A DNA stretch of 20,292 nucleotides from a virus. The notes below the pieces were generated by a model that saw only the letters and a list, made by a program, of their open reading frames with translations, did no database searches and had not been told where the DNA came from. Position numbers and translations under genes: made by a program. The DNA lies in IMG/VR virus record IMGVR_UViG_3300022198_001883, positions 1 to 20,292 of that record. One strand, 5' to 3'. Positions 154 to 19,701 of this stretch are shown here, piece by piece; within the stretch, counting starts at the first letter, position 1; each line of letters opens with the position of its first letter.

Positions 154-556
154 AAATCTAGGGGGGAGACCAGAAGAGCTTTTAAAGCCTGAGAAAGTCA
201 ATCAACTAAAAACTGCTTTTAGCGATGGGCTGACAATAGATCAAGCTTGTGTTTACGCTAAAATTTCAAAACAAACTTATTATAATCATATTGAAAAATA
301 TCCAGAGTTTTTGGACGAGGTAAACGCCTTAAGGCAGAATATAAGCATCTTGGCAAAAAAAAATGTAGTTAATAAGATTAAAAGCGGAGATGAGATTTCT
401 AGTAAATGGTGGCTTGAAAGAAAAGATAAAGATGAATTTAGTTTAAAAACAGAGACTCAGTTATCAGGTGAAGTGACTGAAAGGGTAGTTTATATTGATA
501 AAGAAGAAAAAGAAGCATATAATAATCATATTGATAAAATAATTAATGAAGATTAA
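140..556 (+). CDS. terS: Terminase small subunit (putative)
   Basis: A 138-residue protein immediately before, and overlapping, the large terminase gene by 11 bases, the normal place for a small terminase. Residues about 5-60 look like a DNA-binding helix-turn-helix: GGRPEEL leads into GLTIDQACVYAKISKQTYYN (30-49), with the small-residue turn and the T-Y-Y-N recognition helix typical of phage small terminases. A basic middle (KNVVNKIKSGDEISSKWWLE, about 74-93) probably belongs to oligomerisation, and the acidic Lys/Glu-rich C-terminus may contact the large subunit. By family knowledge it binds phage DNA at the packaging start and recruits and regulates the large subunit. The start has no Shine-Dalgarno sequence. 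The call rests on the HTH, the size and the position; sequence-specific recognition is inferred. Confidence 0.8.
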   Translation: MAKSKNLGGRPEELLKPEKVNQLKTAFSDGLTIDQACVYAKISKQTYYNHIEKYPEFLDEVNALRQNISILAKKNVVNKIKSGDEISSKWWLERKDKDEFSLKTETQLSGEVTERVVYIDKEEKEAYNNHIDKIINED

Positions 557-2027
557 GCACCCCGTTTATTTTGGGCAACTGCTACACAAAAGGGGGTTTA
601 AAGATTGGTTTTTATATTTATTCAGGCAGATAGAGGGTAGGAAGTTTATTATAGAGCCTATCCATCAAGATTTATTTCAGCTTTTTCAAGATATATATGA
701 TCTAAAAACAACTAGAGATAATATTAATGTACCGCCAAGATCAGCAAAAACCACACTAGCTAAATATTTTATTGCTTACACTTTGGCAATGAATCCAAAG
801 GCTAACTTTATCTATACTTCATTTTCTCAAGAGCTACTAAGCACAATATCAAGAGAGCTTGCAAGCATATTGACTAATCCAGTTTATTTGGCTATGTATA
901 ATCAGCCAATAGAAGAAGAAAAAGAAGAGTCAAACCCTATCAATGAATTTTGGCAAGAATATTTACAAAAGACGGAAGGGAAAAGCCATTTTACAAGTAG
1001 AAAAATCACTACAAAAGAAAATGGCGTTACTTTGTTTGCCTCTATTGGTTCAACTATTACAGGTCTTGGCTCAGGAACAAGGGGAGCAACTACATTTTCT
1101 GGCTGCCTTATTGTGGATGATGCAAATAAACCTTCTGACATTCATTCACAAACTATGAGAAATAGGGTAAAAACTTATTTTGAAGAAACTCTATTATCAA
1201 GGCTTAATGAATCAAACACTCCAATAATTAACATTCAACAAAGGTTGCATTTACAAGATTTAAGCGGATTTTTAATTGAAACCTATAAATTTAAAACTCT
1301 TAAAAAGCCTTTGATAGTTGACGGAGTTTGTCAAATACCTAGTCAATACACAAAAGAAAGGATTGAAGAGCTGCAAAAAAACGAGTATATGTTTTCAGCT
1401 CAATATCAACAAGCCCCTATTATGGCAGGCGGTAATTTGTTTAAAAAAGAGACAATAAAAGAAATAAGCAAGGAAGAATTACCAAGCAATTATGAATATA
1501 GATTTATTACTGGCGACTTATCGTATAAATCAAAAGAACAAAATGATTATACTTGTTTTTGCTATTGGGGGGTAGAGGTTATTAATTCATTGCCTAAGTT
1601 ATATTTAATTGATGCTAAAAGAAAAAAGATTAATGCAGTTGATGTTGATGAATGGATTGATTCTTGGATTGCTTCAAAAATAACTACTGGCTTTAGATAT
1701 ATTTGTATTGAAGATAAATCACACGGCATTTATTTAAATCAGAAATACAGGAAAAAAGGCTATCCAGTACCAAGCGAAGAGAAGCTAAAAGAATTATTGC
1801 CAGCAAGAAATATTGACAAAATTGCAAGAGCTAATAACTCTATACCTTGTTTAAATAGCAACGATCCCAATTTAATAATCAATAAAGATATTGAAAACTG
1901 GCAAGAAATGAAAGATGAATTGTTAAGCTTTCCTAATGCTGACCATGACGATTTTGTAGATAATGTTATAGATGGTGTTCATATTGCACTACTCAAGAGG
2001 AAAGCAACCTTTTTTGATATTTTATAG
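546..2027 (+). CDS. terL: Terminase large subunit (packaging ATPase and nuclease)
   Basis: A 493-residue protein of usual TerL length. The ATPase half has a phage-type Walker A motif, VPPRSAKTT (62-70), in which the second glycine of the classical P-loop is replaced by Ala, and a Walker B motif CLIVDD (187-192). INIQQRLHLQDLSG (228-241) fits the coupling-motif region. The C-terminal half looks like an RNase H-fold nuclease: acidic residues D324 (ITGD), E389/D390 (ICIED) and the DHDDFVDN cluster (466-473). By family knowledge it cuts concatemeric DNA and pumps it through the portal into the prohead. A short acidic low-complexity stretch IEEEKEES (122-129) looks like a lineage-specific loop insertion. 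It starts inside the small terminase gene and ends with TAG, before the largest non-coding gap of the window. Confidence 0.95.
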   Translation: MKIKHPVYFGQLLHKRGFKDWFLYLFRQIEGRKFIIEPIHQDLFQLFQDIYDLKTTRDNINVPPRSAKTTLAKYFIAYTLAMNPKANFIYTSFSQELLSTISRELASILTNPVYLAMYNQPIEEEKEESNPINEFWQEYLQKTEGKSHFTSRKITTKENGVTLFASIGSTITGLGSGTRGATTFSGCLIVDDANKPSDIHSQTMRNRVKTYFEETLLSRLNESNTPIINIQQRLHLQDLSGFLIETYKFKTLKKPLIVDGVCQIPSQYTKERIEELQKNEYMFSAQYQQAPIMAGGNLFKKETIKEISKEELPSNYEYRFITGDLSYKSKEQNDYTCFCYWGVEVINSLPKLYLIDAKRKKINAVDVDEWIDSWIASKITTGFRYICIEDKSHGIYLNQKYRKKGYPVPSEEKLKELLPARNIDKIARANNSIPCLNSNDPNLIINKDIENWQEMKDELLSFPNADHDDFVDNVIDGVHIALLKRKATFFDIL

Positions 2028-9289: not shown

Positions 9290-10762
9290 ATGACTATACC
9301 TCTAACTAATATAATTAATGTATCAATTACTAATGTACCACAAGGCTTGCAAGTGCCTAGCGTTAATAGTATTGCTTTATTTACAAACGAGACTCCTTCT
9401 AATATAGATGATTACAGAATTTATTTAGAGCCTTCTTCGGTTGCTACTGATTATGGCACAAACTCAGAAACTGCTGAATTTGCAAATCTTATATTTTCTC
9501 AATCACCAAATATCTTAACTGGTGGTGGTAGATTGGTTATTATACCTCTGCAATCTTCTATAAGTGCAACTCAAGGAGACTTTACAACTGCTGATCTAGC
9601 AAGCAATTTATCTAATTTACAATCAATAGCTGATGGTGATATTAGAATTGTTTTAAATGGCAATAATGTTGATTTGACAAATTTAGATTTTACAAATGCG
9701 TCAACTCTTATAGATATTGCTAAAATAATACAAAAGAAACTAACTGATGTTATTGTTGAAGTTGTTGGAAATACAATCAAATTTTCATCTAAAAAAGTTG
9801 GTCTTGCTTCAACTGTTGATGTGGTACAATTACCTGCTGGTAGTGGCTCTGATTTAAGCGGTGCTAGTTTGTTAAATGTTGCTGGCGGTGTAGATACAGC
9901 AGGAACTAACTCAAGCGGCGAAACTATTGAAGATGCGATTGCAAGAACTGAGCAAAGCGTTCAATATGTAGGAGCTTTTACTAATCTTCAAGTTGAAGAT
10001 GCTAAAATTAGCACAATAGCGACAGCAGTACAAGCAAAAGATAAATTATTTTTTCATCATTTCGCTTCAACTGAAGATTTAGATGGGATTTGCACAACAA
10101 TTAAAGATGCTAGTCAAACTAAAACTAGATGCTTATTTTATTCTGTAAGCCCTCAAGAAGCAAACAAAATGAAAGCCGCTTATGTTGGCAGAGCTAACAG
10201 CGTCAATTTCTCTGGTTCAAATACTGCTCAAACTATGTTTAATAAAACACTAGCAGGAATAACTCCTGATGTAGCGGTTAATCAAACCATACTAATTAAA
10301 GCTGAAACTGCAGGAGCTGATTTATACGGTTCTGTAAATGGTCTTGGTGTAGTGTTCTCAAATGGTGCAAATGATTTCTTTGATAATGTTTATAATCAAA
10401 TTTGGTTTAAATTTGCAATGGAAGTTGCAGGATTTAACTACTTGAGACAAACTAATACTAAAATCCCTCAAACTGAAAAAGGGATGGACGGATTGAAAGC
10501 CGCTTTAGCTAAGGTTTGTCAAACTGGAGTAAATAATGGAATTATTGGGACTGGTTTAACTTGGAACTCACCAGAAACCTTCGGTAATCCAGATGACTTT
10601 AGAAGAAATATTACTGATGCAGGTTATTATATTTATAGCTTGCCAATAGCTCAACAATCACAAGCAGAAAGAGAAGCAAGACAAGCTCCTCTAGTACAAA
10701 CTGCTATTAAATTTGCTGGTGCTATTCATTCAGTAGATATTATTGTTAACATTGAAAGATAA
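9290..10762 (+). CDS. Tail sheath protein (DUF3383)
   Basis: A 490-residue protein of the usual DUF3383 length. It opens with ITNVPQGLQVPSVNSIALFT, a typical start of this sheath family, followed by a first domain ending in GGGRLVIIPLQ. An inserted beta/alpha domain (about 105-200) contains DGDIRIVLNGNNVDLTNLDF and ASTLIDIAKIIQKKL. The C-terminal half carries ETIEDAIARTEQSVQYVGAF, KDKLFFHHFAST, a conserved core around VFSNGANDFFDNVYNQIW, KAALAKVCQTGVNNGIIGTG and a closing FAGAIHSVDIIVNIER strand. By family knowledge hundreds of copies surround the tail tube and contract during DNA injection. This is the main evidence that the phage is a contractile-tailed myovirus. The gene is followed after 7 bases by the tube gene. 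Confidence 0.9.
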   Translation: MTIPLTNIINVSITNVPQGLQVPSVNSIALFTNETPSNIDDYRIYLEPSSVATDYGTNSETAEFANLIFSQSPNILTGGGRLVIIPLQSSISATQGDFTTADLASNLSNLQSIADGDIRIVLNGNNVDLTNLDFTNASTLIDIAKIIQKKLTDVIVEVVGNTIKFSSKKVGLASTVDVVQLPAGSGSDLSGASLLNVAGGVDTAGTNSSGETIEDAIARTEQSVQYVGAFTNLQVEDAKISTIATAVQAKDKLFFHHFASTEDLDGICTTIKDASQTKTRCLFYSVSPQEANKMKAAYVGRANSVNFSGSNTAQTMFNKTLAGITPDVAVNQTILIKAETAGADLYGSVNGLGVVFSNGANDFFDNVYNQIWFKFAMEVAGFNYLRQTNTKIPQTEKGMDGLKAALAKVCQTGVNNGIIGTGLTWNSPETFGNPDDFRRNITDAGYYIYSLPIAQQSQAEREARQAPLVQTAIKFAGAIHSVDIIVNIER

Positions 10763-10769
10763 TTAAATT

Positions 10770-11225
10770 ATGGCTACAAATACTTTAACAGGAAATGACA
10801 CTATCACAATTAATGATAGGGTTTTGACTGATTTCGGCGATGGCTCAGTTGTTGCAATCACTTTTCCAAACGAACTAGTTGCAGTAAAAACTGGCAAAAA
10901 TGGCAACGCTGTTTATTCTCTTAATGAAACTGGCAGGCAAGCCGATGTTGAGTTGAGAATTTTAAAAGGCTCAAGCGATGATAAATTCTTAAATTCACTT
11001 AAATTAAGCATGGAAGCAGATATAGCTTCTTTTGCTCTTTTAAGTGGCGAGTTTGTAAAAAGAATCGGCGACGGTCTTGGTGGTGTTAGTAGAGAGATCA
11101 CTTCTTTAAATGGTGGTATATTTACTCAATCAATAGACACTCAATCTAATGTTGAAGGTGATACCGAGCAAGCTTTGTCAGTTTATAGATTAAGATTCTC
11201 GAACGGAACTAAAACAATAGCATAA
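10770..11225 (+). CDS. Tail tube protein (DUF3277)
   Basis: A 151-residue beta-rich protein right after the sheath gene. It has the DUF3277 pattern: TLTGNDTITINDRVLTDFGD (about 5-24), AITFPNELVAVKTGKNGNAV (about 29-48), the conserved polar GRQADVELRILKGSSDDKFL region, and late SREITSLNGGIFTQSID and VYRLRFSNGTKTIA strands. By family knowledge it forms stacked hexamer rings inside the sheath. A long anti-parallel strand set and lack of signal peptide fit a tube subunit. The TAA stop overlaps the ATG of the tail chaperone gene (TAATG), suggesting coupled translation. Confidence 0.87.
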   Translation: MATNTLTGNDTITINDRVLTDFGDGSVVAITFPNELVAVKTGKNGNAVYSLNETGRQADVELRILKGSSDDKFLNSLKLSMEADIASFALLSGEFVKRIGDGLGGVSREITSLNGGIFTQSIDTQSNVEGDTEQALSVYRLRFSNGTKTIA

Positions 11226-11629
11226 TGTCAAAAGAATTAAAATTTGATAATGGAGATGAAGCGGTAATAAATATCGCTTCATTTTCTAATAGTTTAAGTC
11301 TTAAAAATGCGATTTCAAAATCTTTGCTAGCTCAAGGCGTTAAACTAGCCAATATCGATATTAACAATGTAGATTCATTATTAGATGCTATTTTGGCGGC
11401 TGATAGTGATGAAGCGGTTAATAAAGCAATATTTACTTGTTTAGCTAAATCAACATATAATAAAGAAAAAATAACTTTTGATATTTTTGAAGATGAAAAA
11501 GCAAGGGAAAATTATTATGAAATTGTTATTGAATGTTTAAAAATTAATTTAAGCCCTTTTTTGAAGCCCCTTATTTCAAAGTTGAAAGCGTTTTTTCAAA
11601 ACAGGGTAGAAAACCAAAAATTGAAATAA
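11225..11629 (+). CDS. Tail assembly chaperone, zero-frame product (gpG-type)
   Basis: A 134-residue protein between the tube and the tape measure genes, the invariant place of tail assembly chaperones. The C-terminal half contains a pattern I associate with such chaperones: EAVNKAIFTCLAKSTYN, KITFDIFEDEKARENYYEIV and IECLKINLSPF (about 103-113). By family knowledge the chaperone binds the hydrophobic tape measure protein and keeps it soluble until tube subunits polymerise around it. The final 22 residues after NLSPF are Lys-rich and probably replace the conserved extension found in the frameshifted product. The stop is TAA at 11627-11629. Start TAATG overlaps the tube stop. Confidence 0.8.
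   Translation: MSKELKFDNGDEAVINIASFSNSLSLKNAISKSLLAQGVKLANIDINNVDSLLDAILAADSDEAVNKAIFTCLAKSTYNKEKITFDIFEDEKARENYYEIVIECLKINLSPFLKPLISKLKAFFQNRVENQKLK
11554..11560 (+). promoter_or_regulatory. Predicted programmed -1 ribosomal frameshift site (C CCT TTT)
   Basis: In the chaperone frame the bases read agC CCT TTT TTG, a canonical X XXY YYZ heptamer, and a second overlapping heptamer T TTT TTG starts at 11557. It lies just 6 bases after the last stop in the -1 frame (TAA 11545-11547) and well before the zero-frame stop (11627-11629). Downstream, TTGAA/TTCAA repeats can form weak alternative hairpins, for example TTGAAA-GCGTTT-TTTCAA; these are AT-rich and would be poor stimulators. The strength of the case is the open -1 frame, described separately. 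Confidence 0.72.
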
Positions 11630-11802
11630 GAGCTAGTGAGCTAGATATAATTTGTCTAAGATTAGCTAAGGCAGGGTACGGAGGGGGCGTACCTCAAAAC
11701 ATTGCAGAAATGAGTTGTGATTGGGTTTTAAAAATCTTGCAATATGAGGATTTTTGCAATGATTACGAACGAGAATTGTTAGAAATAAATAAAAATGGCT
11801 AG
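11560..11802 (+). CDS. Tail assembly chaperone, -1 frame extension (gpGT-type T domain)
   Basis: The -1 frame relative to the chaperone is open from 11548 to 11799 and ends in TAG at 11800-11802, overlapping the tape measure ATG (11795). It has no ATG, GTG or TTG start before 11710, so it is unlikely to be an independent gene of this length. After slipping at 11554-11560 it adds 80 residues to the first 112, giving a 192-residue fusion. The extension contains FSKQGRKPKIEIRASELDII, then LAKAGYGGGVPQN and IAEMSCDWVLKILQYEDFCN, with hydrophobic helical spacing like that of T domains in lambda-type G-GT chaperones. By family knowledge the T part binds tube subunits while the G part binds the tape measure. 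Amino-acid-like composition across the whole frame supports real coding. Confidence 0.75.
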   Translation, partial: FEAPYFKVESVFSKQGRKPKIEIRASELDIICLRLAKAGYGGGVPQNIAEMSCDWVLKILQYEDFCNDYERELLEINKNG

Positions 11803-13198
11803 TCTTGGAGAATTATTTATAAGCTTAGGAATTAAGGCTGATGAAGCAAGTCTTAAAAGAATAGATAATGGTATTAAATCACTTAGAAACGGAGCGTTCG
11901 CATTATCTGCCGCTTTTACTGGTGCTGTTTATGGCTTAAATAAGTTTGTTGATGGTTCTTTACAGGGAGTAGTAGCTCTTCAAAATTTATCTAATCAAAC
12001 AGGTTTAGCAATTGAAGGATTGCAAAAATGGCAACAAGCAGGGCAATTATCTAATCTTGCAATTAGTGCCGAGCAAATAGCAGGGTCAATAGGTAATGTA
12101 CAAAAAAACTTAGCTCAAATTAGAATGGGTCAAGGCAACCTTGCCCCTTTTCAATTACTAGGCATTGATGTAATGGGTCAAGATGCTTTCGGCGTTTTAG
12201 ATCAATTAAGAAATTCAATACAAGGCTTAGACTCAGCAACGGCAACAAATCTAATTACTCAAATTGGATTAACTCCTGATTTTATAAATCTTCTTAGATT
12301 AAGTAGAAAAGAATTTGAAGCCTTAAGCGAAAACACTTTTTTAAATAAAAAACAAAGAGAAGAAATAGACAAAGTAGGAACTAGTATAAAAGCCCTACAA
12401 TTAAGAATGGGAGCTTTAAAAGATCAAGCGGTTGCAAAAATAGCCCCCTTACTTAATGACTTAGTACAAGACTTTTTCAAGTGGCTTAGTGATAATGGCG
12501 ATAAAATAGTTAATACTATGTCAGATTTTGCCAAAGGCTTTGCTATGTTTACTCAAGCAATAGGAAATGCTTTTAGTGTGTTAACTGGCTTTTTGTCAAA
12601 TATAACAGGAATGGAAAGCGGAACTAAGGCTTTAGCAATTGCCTTTGGTGCTTTAACTTTGGCAATGCGTCCAATGTTATTAGGTTTTACTGCTTTGCTT
12701 TTAGTCTTAGATGATATAGCGGTATTCCAAAGAGGAGGGGAAAGTTTAATTGGTAGCTTCTTTGATGTGTTTAAAAATGGTGAACTAACAACTCAAATTA
12801 CAACAATTGCAACAGCTATTGGGGTTTTATCGCTTGCTTTAGGTGGTATAACTGGAAGTCTAAAAACAATTAAGGGTCTTGGTGGAATAGGTGCGGTATT
12901 AGGTGCAACTGGTCTAATATCTCAAGCTCCAGAACTAGGTAAAAAGTTTGCTTCCTTTTTGGAAGAAAAAACAAATATTGGAGATTTTATTGATAAATTA
13001 CTTGGAAACGATCTAGCTTCAATTAATCAACGCATGGGGTTAAATACTGCTTTAAATGCCAATATAACTAATAATGTTACAATTAATGGAATACAAGAGC
13101 CAAAGGCGGTAAAAGATGAATTATCAAGAGGGCTAGATGTTATAACAACACAAAGCCTTAAAAAGGTTCAAATTAATCAAGGTAATAATTTAAAATAA
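11795..13198 (+). CDS. Tail tape measure protein
   Basis: A 467-residue protein following the chaperone. The N-terminal part is helical (LGELFISLGIKADEASLKRI; GLAIEGLQKWQQAGQ). Central and later hydrophobic segments lie at about 277-310 (LAIAFGALTLA and MLLGFTALLLVLDDIAVF, followed by QRGGESLIGSFF) and 332-352 (TTQITTIATAIGVLSLALGG), typical of tape measures that insert in the membrane or are held by chaperones. The end, NNVTINGIQEPKAVKDELSR, is a common tape-measure C-terminus. By family knowledge it sets tail length and passes into the cell envelope at injection. At about 1.5 angstroms per residue it would suggest a short tail of roughly 70 nm; this is only a rule of thumb. The start overlaps the -1 extension stop. 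Confidence 0.85.
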   Translation: MASLGELFISLGIKADEASLKRIDNGIKSLRNGAFALSAAFTGAVYGLNKFVDGSLQGVVALQNLSNQTGLAIEGLQKWQQAGQLSNLAISAEQIAGSIGNVQKNLAQIRMGQGNLAPFQLLGIDVMGQDAFGVLDQLRNSIQGLDSATATNLITQIGLTPDFINLLRLSRKEFEALSENTFLNKKQREEIDKVGTSIKALQLRMGALKDQAVAKIAPLLNDLVQDFFKWLSDNGDKIVNTMSDFAKGFAMFTQAIGNAFSVLTGFLSNITGMESGTKALAIAFGALTLAMRPMLLGFTALLLVLDDIAVFQRGGESLIGSFFDVFKNGELTTQITTIATAIGVLSLALGGITGSLKTIKGLGGIGAVLGATGLISQAPELGKKFASFLEEKTNIGDFIDKLLGNDLASINQRMGLNTALNANITNNVTINGIQEPKAVKDELSRGLDVITTQSLKKVQINQGNNLK

Positions 13199-18171: not shown

Positions 18172-19701
18172 ATGGCTAAATTAACAAGACAAACTCAGAA
18201 GCTTTTTGCTCAAAATGTTAATAAAGGTACTTTTGGAAGTTTTAAATTAGGCACTCCGACAGTTGCAACAACGCTAGCAGATATGCAATCAGCAGAATAT
18301 CTTAATGGTTGGATTGATGGCTACAAGGAGCAAAACGGAAACAAACAAATACCAATTGAAGAGCAAAACACTTTACAATATATCAACAACTATCAGCAAG
18401 CTTATTTATTGCAAGAAGGAATAGCTGAATATGATATTGGCACAGAATATTATATTGATTCCTTAGTTAAGAATAGCGGATTAATATATAAATCATTAAT
18501 TGATAGTAATATTGGGCAATCTTTAAGCGATGCTTCCAAATGGCAAGTTTTAGGAGATCTTAAAACCTCAATCAATGTTGTTTATATAGATAAAAAAGAA
18601 GATTTACCAAGTGCAATATCTAATGTAATTACTCTTGAAGCTAAAACTTATATATTTACTTCTAGCGTTGATTTATTAGGTGATAGATTAGTTGCAATTG
18701 AAGGAACGGCAATTTTAGGGTTGGCGACTGATTCTTGTAAAATATCATCAACAGGATTAACTGGTTCACCATTAATTACCTCTAATTATACTTTATCAAT
18801 AAGACATATAACTTTAGAAGCGGAAACCCCTTTTAATTTAGATGCCTCCGCTAATGCTGATCAAATATTAAGCTGGTTTGAAGTGCATCTTGAGAATTGC
18901 ACAAATTCAGGCGTAATTAAATCTTACTCAAGCTTTATTGGTGATTCAATCAATGTCTTAAATTCAGCAGGAATATCTTTTGATGGCTCTATTAATACAA
19001 TAGGCTTTATTAAAAGTTATTTTGATATTCCATTGGGTAAAGTCGGGGTTAATTTTGAATCAAGTTTAATCCTTTCTTTAAGAAGTGGTTTATCTTATAC
19101 AGCGTTTAATATAGCCTCAACAGGTACAGCAATTAAAATTAACGCTGGAGCTACAATTCCAAATGAAGGTTTTTTATTAGACAATTGTAATTTCTCTGGA
19201 AGCGGTGTTTATTTAGATGGCATCAGCTCAAGCGATATTGAGTCAAGATTTAGAGATAATAGAGGTATTGCAAATTCTATAAGTGCTGGACAATATTATA
19301 TGAATGGCAATACTACCCCTACCACTATTGCCTCTTCTGGAACTTATACTAAAATTTTAGGTTCAACAAGTGCAGGCTCAATAGTACAAAGATTTGATGT
19401 CTCAACCTCAAATAAAGCGATTTATACAGGCTCATTGACGGATAATTTTATCGTGCATGTTGTTTTAACTTTTACTGGCACTAATAATGATGATCTTTCT
19501 TTTAAAATTGCTAAGAATGGAGTTGAGATTGATTCAAGCCAATTATCAAGGACAGTAGTTGGAACTGGCAATTATGCTTCGGTTGCCTTGCAAGACATAG
19601 TAGAGTTATCAACAAATGATTATATTGAAGTGTTTGCTACAAATGACACTAACACAAACAATATTATAATTAAAGATTTAAATGTAATTGTATCTAAATA
19701 A
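18172..19701 (+). CDS. Tail fibre protein, first of two tandem copies with shared N-terminus
   Basis: A 509-residue protein. The first 128 residues, including LQYINNYQQAYLLQEGIAEY (68-87) and a module-like YYIDSLVKNSGLIYKSLIDS then KWQVLG (93-128), are paralogous to the next gene and are probably the attachment to the baseplate. The module at 85-127 resembles CBM5/12 folds. Residues about 140-365 are rich in Ser, Ile, Asn and Gly strands (for example LVAIEGTAILGLATD and TGSPLITSNYTLSIRHITLE), suggesting a beta-helix. From about 370 a jelly-roll-like C-terminal domain starts with AGQYYMNGNTTPTTIA and continues with VQRFDVSTSNKAIYTG, SFKIAKNGVEIDSS and ALQDIVELSTNDYIEVF. Such C-terminal domains are usual for receptor binding. 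No chaperone domain or autoprotease site is seen. Confidence 0.85.
   Translation: MAKLTRQTQKLFAQNVNKGTFGSFKLGTPTVATTLADMQSAEYLNGWIDGYKEQNGNKQIPIEEQNTLQYINNYQQAYLLQEGIAEYDIGTEYYIDSLVKNSGLIYKSLIDSNIGQSLSDASKWQVLGDLKTSINVVYIDKKEDLPSAISNVITLEAKTYIFTSSVDLLGDRLVAIEGTAILGLATDSCKISSTGLTGSPLITSNYTLSIRHITLEAETPFNLDASANADQILSWFEVHLENCTNSGVIKSYSSFIGDSINVLNSAGISFDGSINTIGFIKSYFDIPLGKVGVNFESSLILSLRSGLSYTAFNIASTGTAIKINAGATIPNEGFLLDNCNFSGSGVYLDGISSSDIESRFRDNRGIANSISAGQYYMNGNTTPTTIASSGTYTKILGSTSAGSIVQRFDVSTSNKAIYTGSLTDNFIVHVVLTFTGTNNDDLSFKIAKNGVEIDSSQLSRTVVGTGNYASVALQDIVELSTNDYIEVFATNDTNTNNIIIKDLNVIVSK

Follow-up and report, generated by a model that had tools for sequence, protein, structure and literature searches.

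Tail assembly chaperone gene of a contractile-tailed virus with a predicted −1 ribosomal frameshift of the lambda G/GT and P2 E/E′ type

We analyzed the 20,292-base virus record IMGVR_UViG_3300022198_001883, the whole of which is called the window here, and suggest that this phage very probably makes a longer, predicted chaperone fusion by −1 ribosomal frameshifting of the G-GT/E-E′ type. Most ribosomes would reach the chaperone stop and release a 134 amino acid protein, and a minority would slip back one base on C CCT TTT TTG (11554–11563) and read on in the −1 frame as far as the TAG at 11800. The slipped ribosomes would give a 192 amino acid fusion, in which the first 112 or 113 chaperone residues are followed by a folded extension of 80 or 79 residues. 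By analogy with lambda G/GT and P2 E/E+E′, the short and the fused products may coat the tape measure protein together during tail assembly, and the extension may recruit the tube subunit. The open frame, the heptamers, the conservation of the extension at the protein level and the synonymous conservation of the slip site are observed directly. The arrangement is already known in kind, as a fused CDS is annotated in the phages Aaphi23 and Magia and the mechanism is the textbook one of G/GT and E/E′.

Table 1. Features of the tail region of the window, with the evidence for each.
Feature	Coordinates	Strand	Evidence
Tail sheath protein (DUF3383)	9290..10762	+	PF11863, E 2.6e-58; PHROG 205 tail sheath, E 1e-78
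Putative tail tube protein	10770..11225	+	PHROG 280 virion structural protein, E 5.5e-9; lies between sheath and chaperone
Zero-frame tail assembly chaperone, 134 aa (G/E-like)	11225..11629	+	PF21822 Phage_TAC_15; fold matches
Slippery heptamer C CCT TTT, chaperone frame	11554..11560	+	Sequence; C CCT TTY in 38 of 61 loci
Second, overlapping slippery heptamer T TTT TTG (P2-type T6G)	11557..11563	+	Sequence; identical locus L002
−1 frame, 84 open codons; the part from 11560 or 11563 is the T/E′-like C-terminal extension	11548..11802	+	PHROG 16793; AlphaFold2
Tape measure protein	11795..13198	+	PHROG 8125 tail length tape measure, E 1.6e-25

Pfam and PHROG profiles place a contractile-tail module in the window, with sheath, putative tube, chaperone, tape measure, Dit-like, hub (E217 gp41-like) and baseplate genes, and with portal, Mu F-like and major capsid genes upstream of it. 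The tube function is putative and was read from gene order. A small protein gene thus stands between the tube and tape measure genes, as in the G/GT and E/E′ systems. At the two ends of the window (546–2027 and 18172–19701) there are long ORFs of 493 and 509 amino acids without a Pfam match, which, from their position, may belong to the terminase region and to a tail fibre. A megablast search against the phages in the collection gave no DNA-level match to the whole window. At the protein level, the closest isolated phage found is Bdellovibrio phage phi1422, a phiPLPE-like dwarf myovirus (PMC3391216), which, in a comparison that covers the structural module, matches the window in the sheath, tube, chaperone, extension and tape measure.

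The 134 amino acid protein had been called a tail chaperone from the sequence, and this identity is borne out both by profile and by fold. It scores 31.0 bits against PF21822 (Phage_TAC_15), where the curated cut-off is 22, and the same family matches 25 of 45 relatives at E 0.01 or better. Its zero-frame model (pLDDT 92) matches annotated tail assembly chaperones in a BFVD fold search, and the phiPLPE protein B5AX67 also matches the model by fold. The HK97 chaperone (2ob9) is a weak match (Foldseek E 1.5; VIA-align Z 4.1 over 77 residues, rmsd 3.9). Among solved structures the best match is ORF19 of a Vibrio cholerae PICI-like element (5ir0), with Z 7.0 over 93 residues, a Z that lies in the range common by chance, but a satellite protein similar to the tail chaperone of a phage would deserve attention.

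The sequence-only reading described a stretch of 165 bases between the chaperone stop and the tape measure ATG, crossed by a −1 frame without a stop between 11548 and the TAG at 11800–11802 and without a start codon before the ATG at 11710. The ORF coordinates agree on each of these points. No other intergenic gap in the window exceeds 55 nt, which makes this one the longest, and the extension shares its last 8 nt with the start of the tape measure gene, ATG included. We compared 25 gene ends of the window, and only at the chaperone does a long −1 tail reach into DNA that is otherwise empty while the overlap contains an X XXY YYZ heptamer in register. The heptamer C CCT TTT was also placed correctly in the chaperone register, and slippage on it does join 112 chaperone residues to 80 new ones, 192 in total. 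What the sequence-only reading overlooked was the contractile nature of the tail, evident from the sheath gene, and a second in-register heptamer, T TTT TTG, which overlaps the first; a slippery heptamer in register within the overlap is a feature of the G/GT and E/E′ systems. A slip on T TTT TTG would join 113 to 79 residues, again 192 in total, so that the two possible fusions differ at one residue only, F113 for C CCT TTT and L113 for T TTT TTG. The predicted tryptic junction peptides are INLSPFFEAPYFK for the slip on C CCT TTT and INLSPFLEAPYFK for that on T TTT TTG, and the predicted peptide of the zero-frame product is INLSPFLKPLISK.

The loci of related phages were gathered by a scan for sheath relatives, and those with readable sequence downstream of the sheath make up 61 distinct loci, among which L002 is identical to the window. 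Relatives without the extension would speak against a frameshift, and none was found: in all 61 loci the −1 frame stays open beyond the stop of the chaperone, and C CCT TTY or T TTT TTN is present in 46 of them. The −1 tail is 137–239 nt long, except for one of 77 nt that is cut by the contig end, and in nearly all of the 61 loci it ends at the tape measure start or within a few tens of nucleotides of it; the few exceptions have a contig end or an insertion before the tape measure. The +1 tail past the chaperone stop is usually short in these loci. In locus L067 (3823–4285), unlike all other loci, about 470 nt separate the extension stop from the tape measure start, possibly an insertion. By tblastn the extension was found in all close relatives and also in Bdellovibrio phage phi1422 (33.75% identity) and Vibrio phage Athena1 (24%). 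The one scan of genome contigs yielded one relative, which lies in a Bdellovibrio MAG.

Past the zero-frame stop, the dN/dS of the extension in the three nearest pairs is 0.31 (L002 with L005), 0.10 (L002 with L017) and 0.17 (the third pair), compared with 0.45, 1.22 and 1.46, respectively, for a control reading of this DNA in another frame. Judged from these substitutions (dN/dS of about 0.1–0.3), purifying selection acts on the extension as a protein in this region. One alternative is that the −1 frame is open by chance or is decaying, in an AT-rich genome where short open frames are common. An open frame of 84 codons has a chance probability of about 0.0008 in first-order Markov sequence of the window's composition, and together with the conserved protein, the low dN/dS and a confident AlphaFold model of the extension this leads us to reject the chance reading, the probability of which we regard as practically negligible. 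A further alternative is a sequencing or assembly error, by which a base lost in the T6 run would have split one continuous gene. The T run does sit exactly at the frame change, yet the same −1 arrangement is present in 61 distinct loci, many of them with only T4 and different flanks, and in finished phage genomes as well, and the zero-frame C-terminal tail is itself kept among close relatives (KPLISKL). After weighing these points we also rejected this explanation, as extremely improbable.

A more serious alternative regards the extension as a small gene in its own right, with a start codon of its own and with translation that is coupled to the chaperone gene and follows its stop. Databases list it so for phi1422 (gp58) and Athena1 (0052), and the profile family that it matches, PHROG 16793, is only 50 amino acids long. 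However, a start at ATG 11710 would leave 30 amino acids and omit the conserved part ..EAPYFKV..EI..LDIICLRLAKAGYGGG.., which lies upstream of this first start codon; the β-hairpin of the AlphaFold model (residues 10–27) would be lost with it. In the relatives the first start codons are mostly found 25–55 codons past the slip site, at variable positions, and a separate gene would leave the conservation of the heptamer unexplained. An own-start gene, which the sequence-only reading had named as a possible refutation, is thus countered: because the conserved part of the extension precedes the first start codon, the extension is not a separate gene of this kind, and we weighed and rejected this alternative as improbable, although it is the least improbable of the four discussed here.

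Frameshifting, in turn, is well supported by the slip site itself. We compared the codons at the conserved Pro-Phe in 53 loci with the counts expected from each locus's own codon use, and found CCT as the Pro codon in all 53 (19.2 expected), TTT as the Phe codon in 47 (31.6 expected) and C as the base before the Pro codon in 39 (10.7 expected); kinship among the loci inflates these counts, and the pattern is unchanged in a reduced set of 44. In the 11 loci with at least 50% GC, the respective values are 11 against 2.3, 9 against 2.5 and 11 against 4.2. The residue before the Pro is variable (S, N, D, L, A), and its third base remains C. Among relatives the slippery heptamer is thus kept far beyond what codon usage would give, and a slip-point CCT that is invariant even in GC-rich relatives would be a clear example of recoding found from sequence alone. 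It is also this conservation that argues against slippage of the RNA polymerase on the T run, which would yield a mixed mRNA population and reach the same frame. The run in the window is only T6, many relatives have just T4 (C CCT TTT followed by ACG, ATC or GTT), and what is kept is the codon register of CCT TTT together with the preceding C, which fits two-tRNA slippage. Polymerase slippage was therefore weighed and rejected too, as very improbable.

Returning to ribosomal frameshifting, the slip sites of the 61 loci fall into several classes: C CCT TTY in 38, T TTT TTN in 8 more, other heptamers of the canonical pattern in 7 and the tetramer T TTN alone in 8. In E. coli, heptamers of the type H_HH.U_UU.Y, to which C CCU UUU belongs, rank with the most efficient (PMC4066793), and T6G is the slippery site described for P2 E/E′ (PMC3931495). 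Several loci that lack the first C have T TTT TTY (L017, L050, L057, L080 and L096). Locus L019 narrows the place of the shift, as its −1 frame becomes open just ahead of CCC TTT: the shift has to occur at or after the heptamer and not upstream of it. Loci with a −1 extension and with neither C CCT TTY nor T TTT TTN are L039, L040, L041, L042, L043, L048 and L131, L061, L063, L065 and L069, and L072; some of them have another pattern heptamer, and the rest have a T TTT tetramer at Pro-Phe or Cys-Phe. The natural variants (C CCT TTY, T TTT TTY and T TTT only) could serve to measure how the strength of the slip site and the ratio of the products co-evolve.

Elements that could stimulate the shift were looked for on both sides of the slip site. 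No consistent signal of a downstream RNA structure was obtained in 21 loci, and in L002 the fold has a z near 0 for 50 nt and of −1.7 for 90 nt. Upstream, Shine-Dalgarno-like pairing averages −2.9 kcal/mol against a synonymous expectation of −1.6 kcal/mol, and in the window anti-Shine-Dalgarno pairing is absent upstream. Since there is no consistent downstream structure and no such upstream pairing in the window, the frameshift efficiency could be low.

A search of the extension against phage profiles, proposed by the sequence-only reading, gave a match to PHROG 16793 (E 2.2e-6), which carries the label "unknown function". This family is matched by 33 of 45 extensions and is evidently a fragment of such tail chaperone fusions, within which it can now be given a role. 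The annotation of this phage group, in which the extension is either missing or entered as a small gene by itself with no known function, would be corrected by this reading. The AlphaFold2 model of the extension (pLDDT 92) consists of a β-hairpin and helices. A fold search with this model gave no clear match, a sequence search of solved structures returned nothing, and no profile similarity to the extensions of Aaphi23 and Magia was detected. One tentative idea, which we hold to be rather less probable than its opposite, is that the extension represents a distinct and as yet undescribed class of T-like domain, of which PHROG 16793 would be a fragment, that has a fold and possibly a partner of its own, and that L039/L041/L131, L061/L063/L065/L069 and L072 make the fusion while lacking a strong heptamer at the conserved position. 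If this were true, fusion in these loci would point to single-tRNA slippage on the T TTT tetramer.

Several known systems can be compared with the window. In Haemophilus phage Aaphi23, a fused CDS (ORF54-54′) is annotated at the same place, but its slip site is T TTT TTT and its extension is not detectably homologous to that of the window. Burkholderia phage Magia (PQC04_gp15/gp16) has the same sheath family, an annotated fused tape measure chaperone (PMC7883833) and an identical C CCT TTT; the zero-frame protein of its group aligns with that of the window through the PF slip position (profile probability 85.5%, E 5.7e-6), whereas the extension, again, is not detectably homologous. In phi1422 (gp57/gp58), the closest isolated phage found, the chaperone is 38% and the extension 34% identical and C CCT TTT is kept, yet gp58 appears in the record as an ORF by itself, with a TTG start and no frameshift, and frameshifting is not mentioned in the genome paper (PMC3391216). 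Lambda G/GT, the precedent named at the outset, occupies the same place just upstream of the tape measure gene and has a −1 shift near the 3′ end that gives a short product and a long fusion, gpGT, the extension of which binds the tube subunit (PMC5009743). Lambda, however, is non-contractile, and while the product ratio and tube binding are established there, the occurrence and frequency of slippage, the ratio of the products and their binding roles are carried over to our phage by analogy. As the tail of the window is contractile, P2 E/E+E′ is the nearer experimental precedent, with a small protein between tube and tape measure that has an overlapping −1 extension, and with a T6G heptamer, T TTT TTG, identical to the second site of the window (PMC3931495). 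The window differs from P2 in having C CCT TTT in addition, which most of its relatives keep instead, and the two are compared here in arrangement and slip site.
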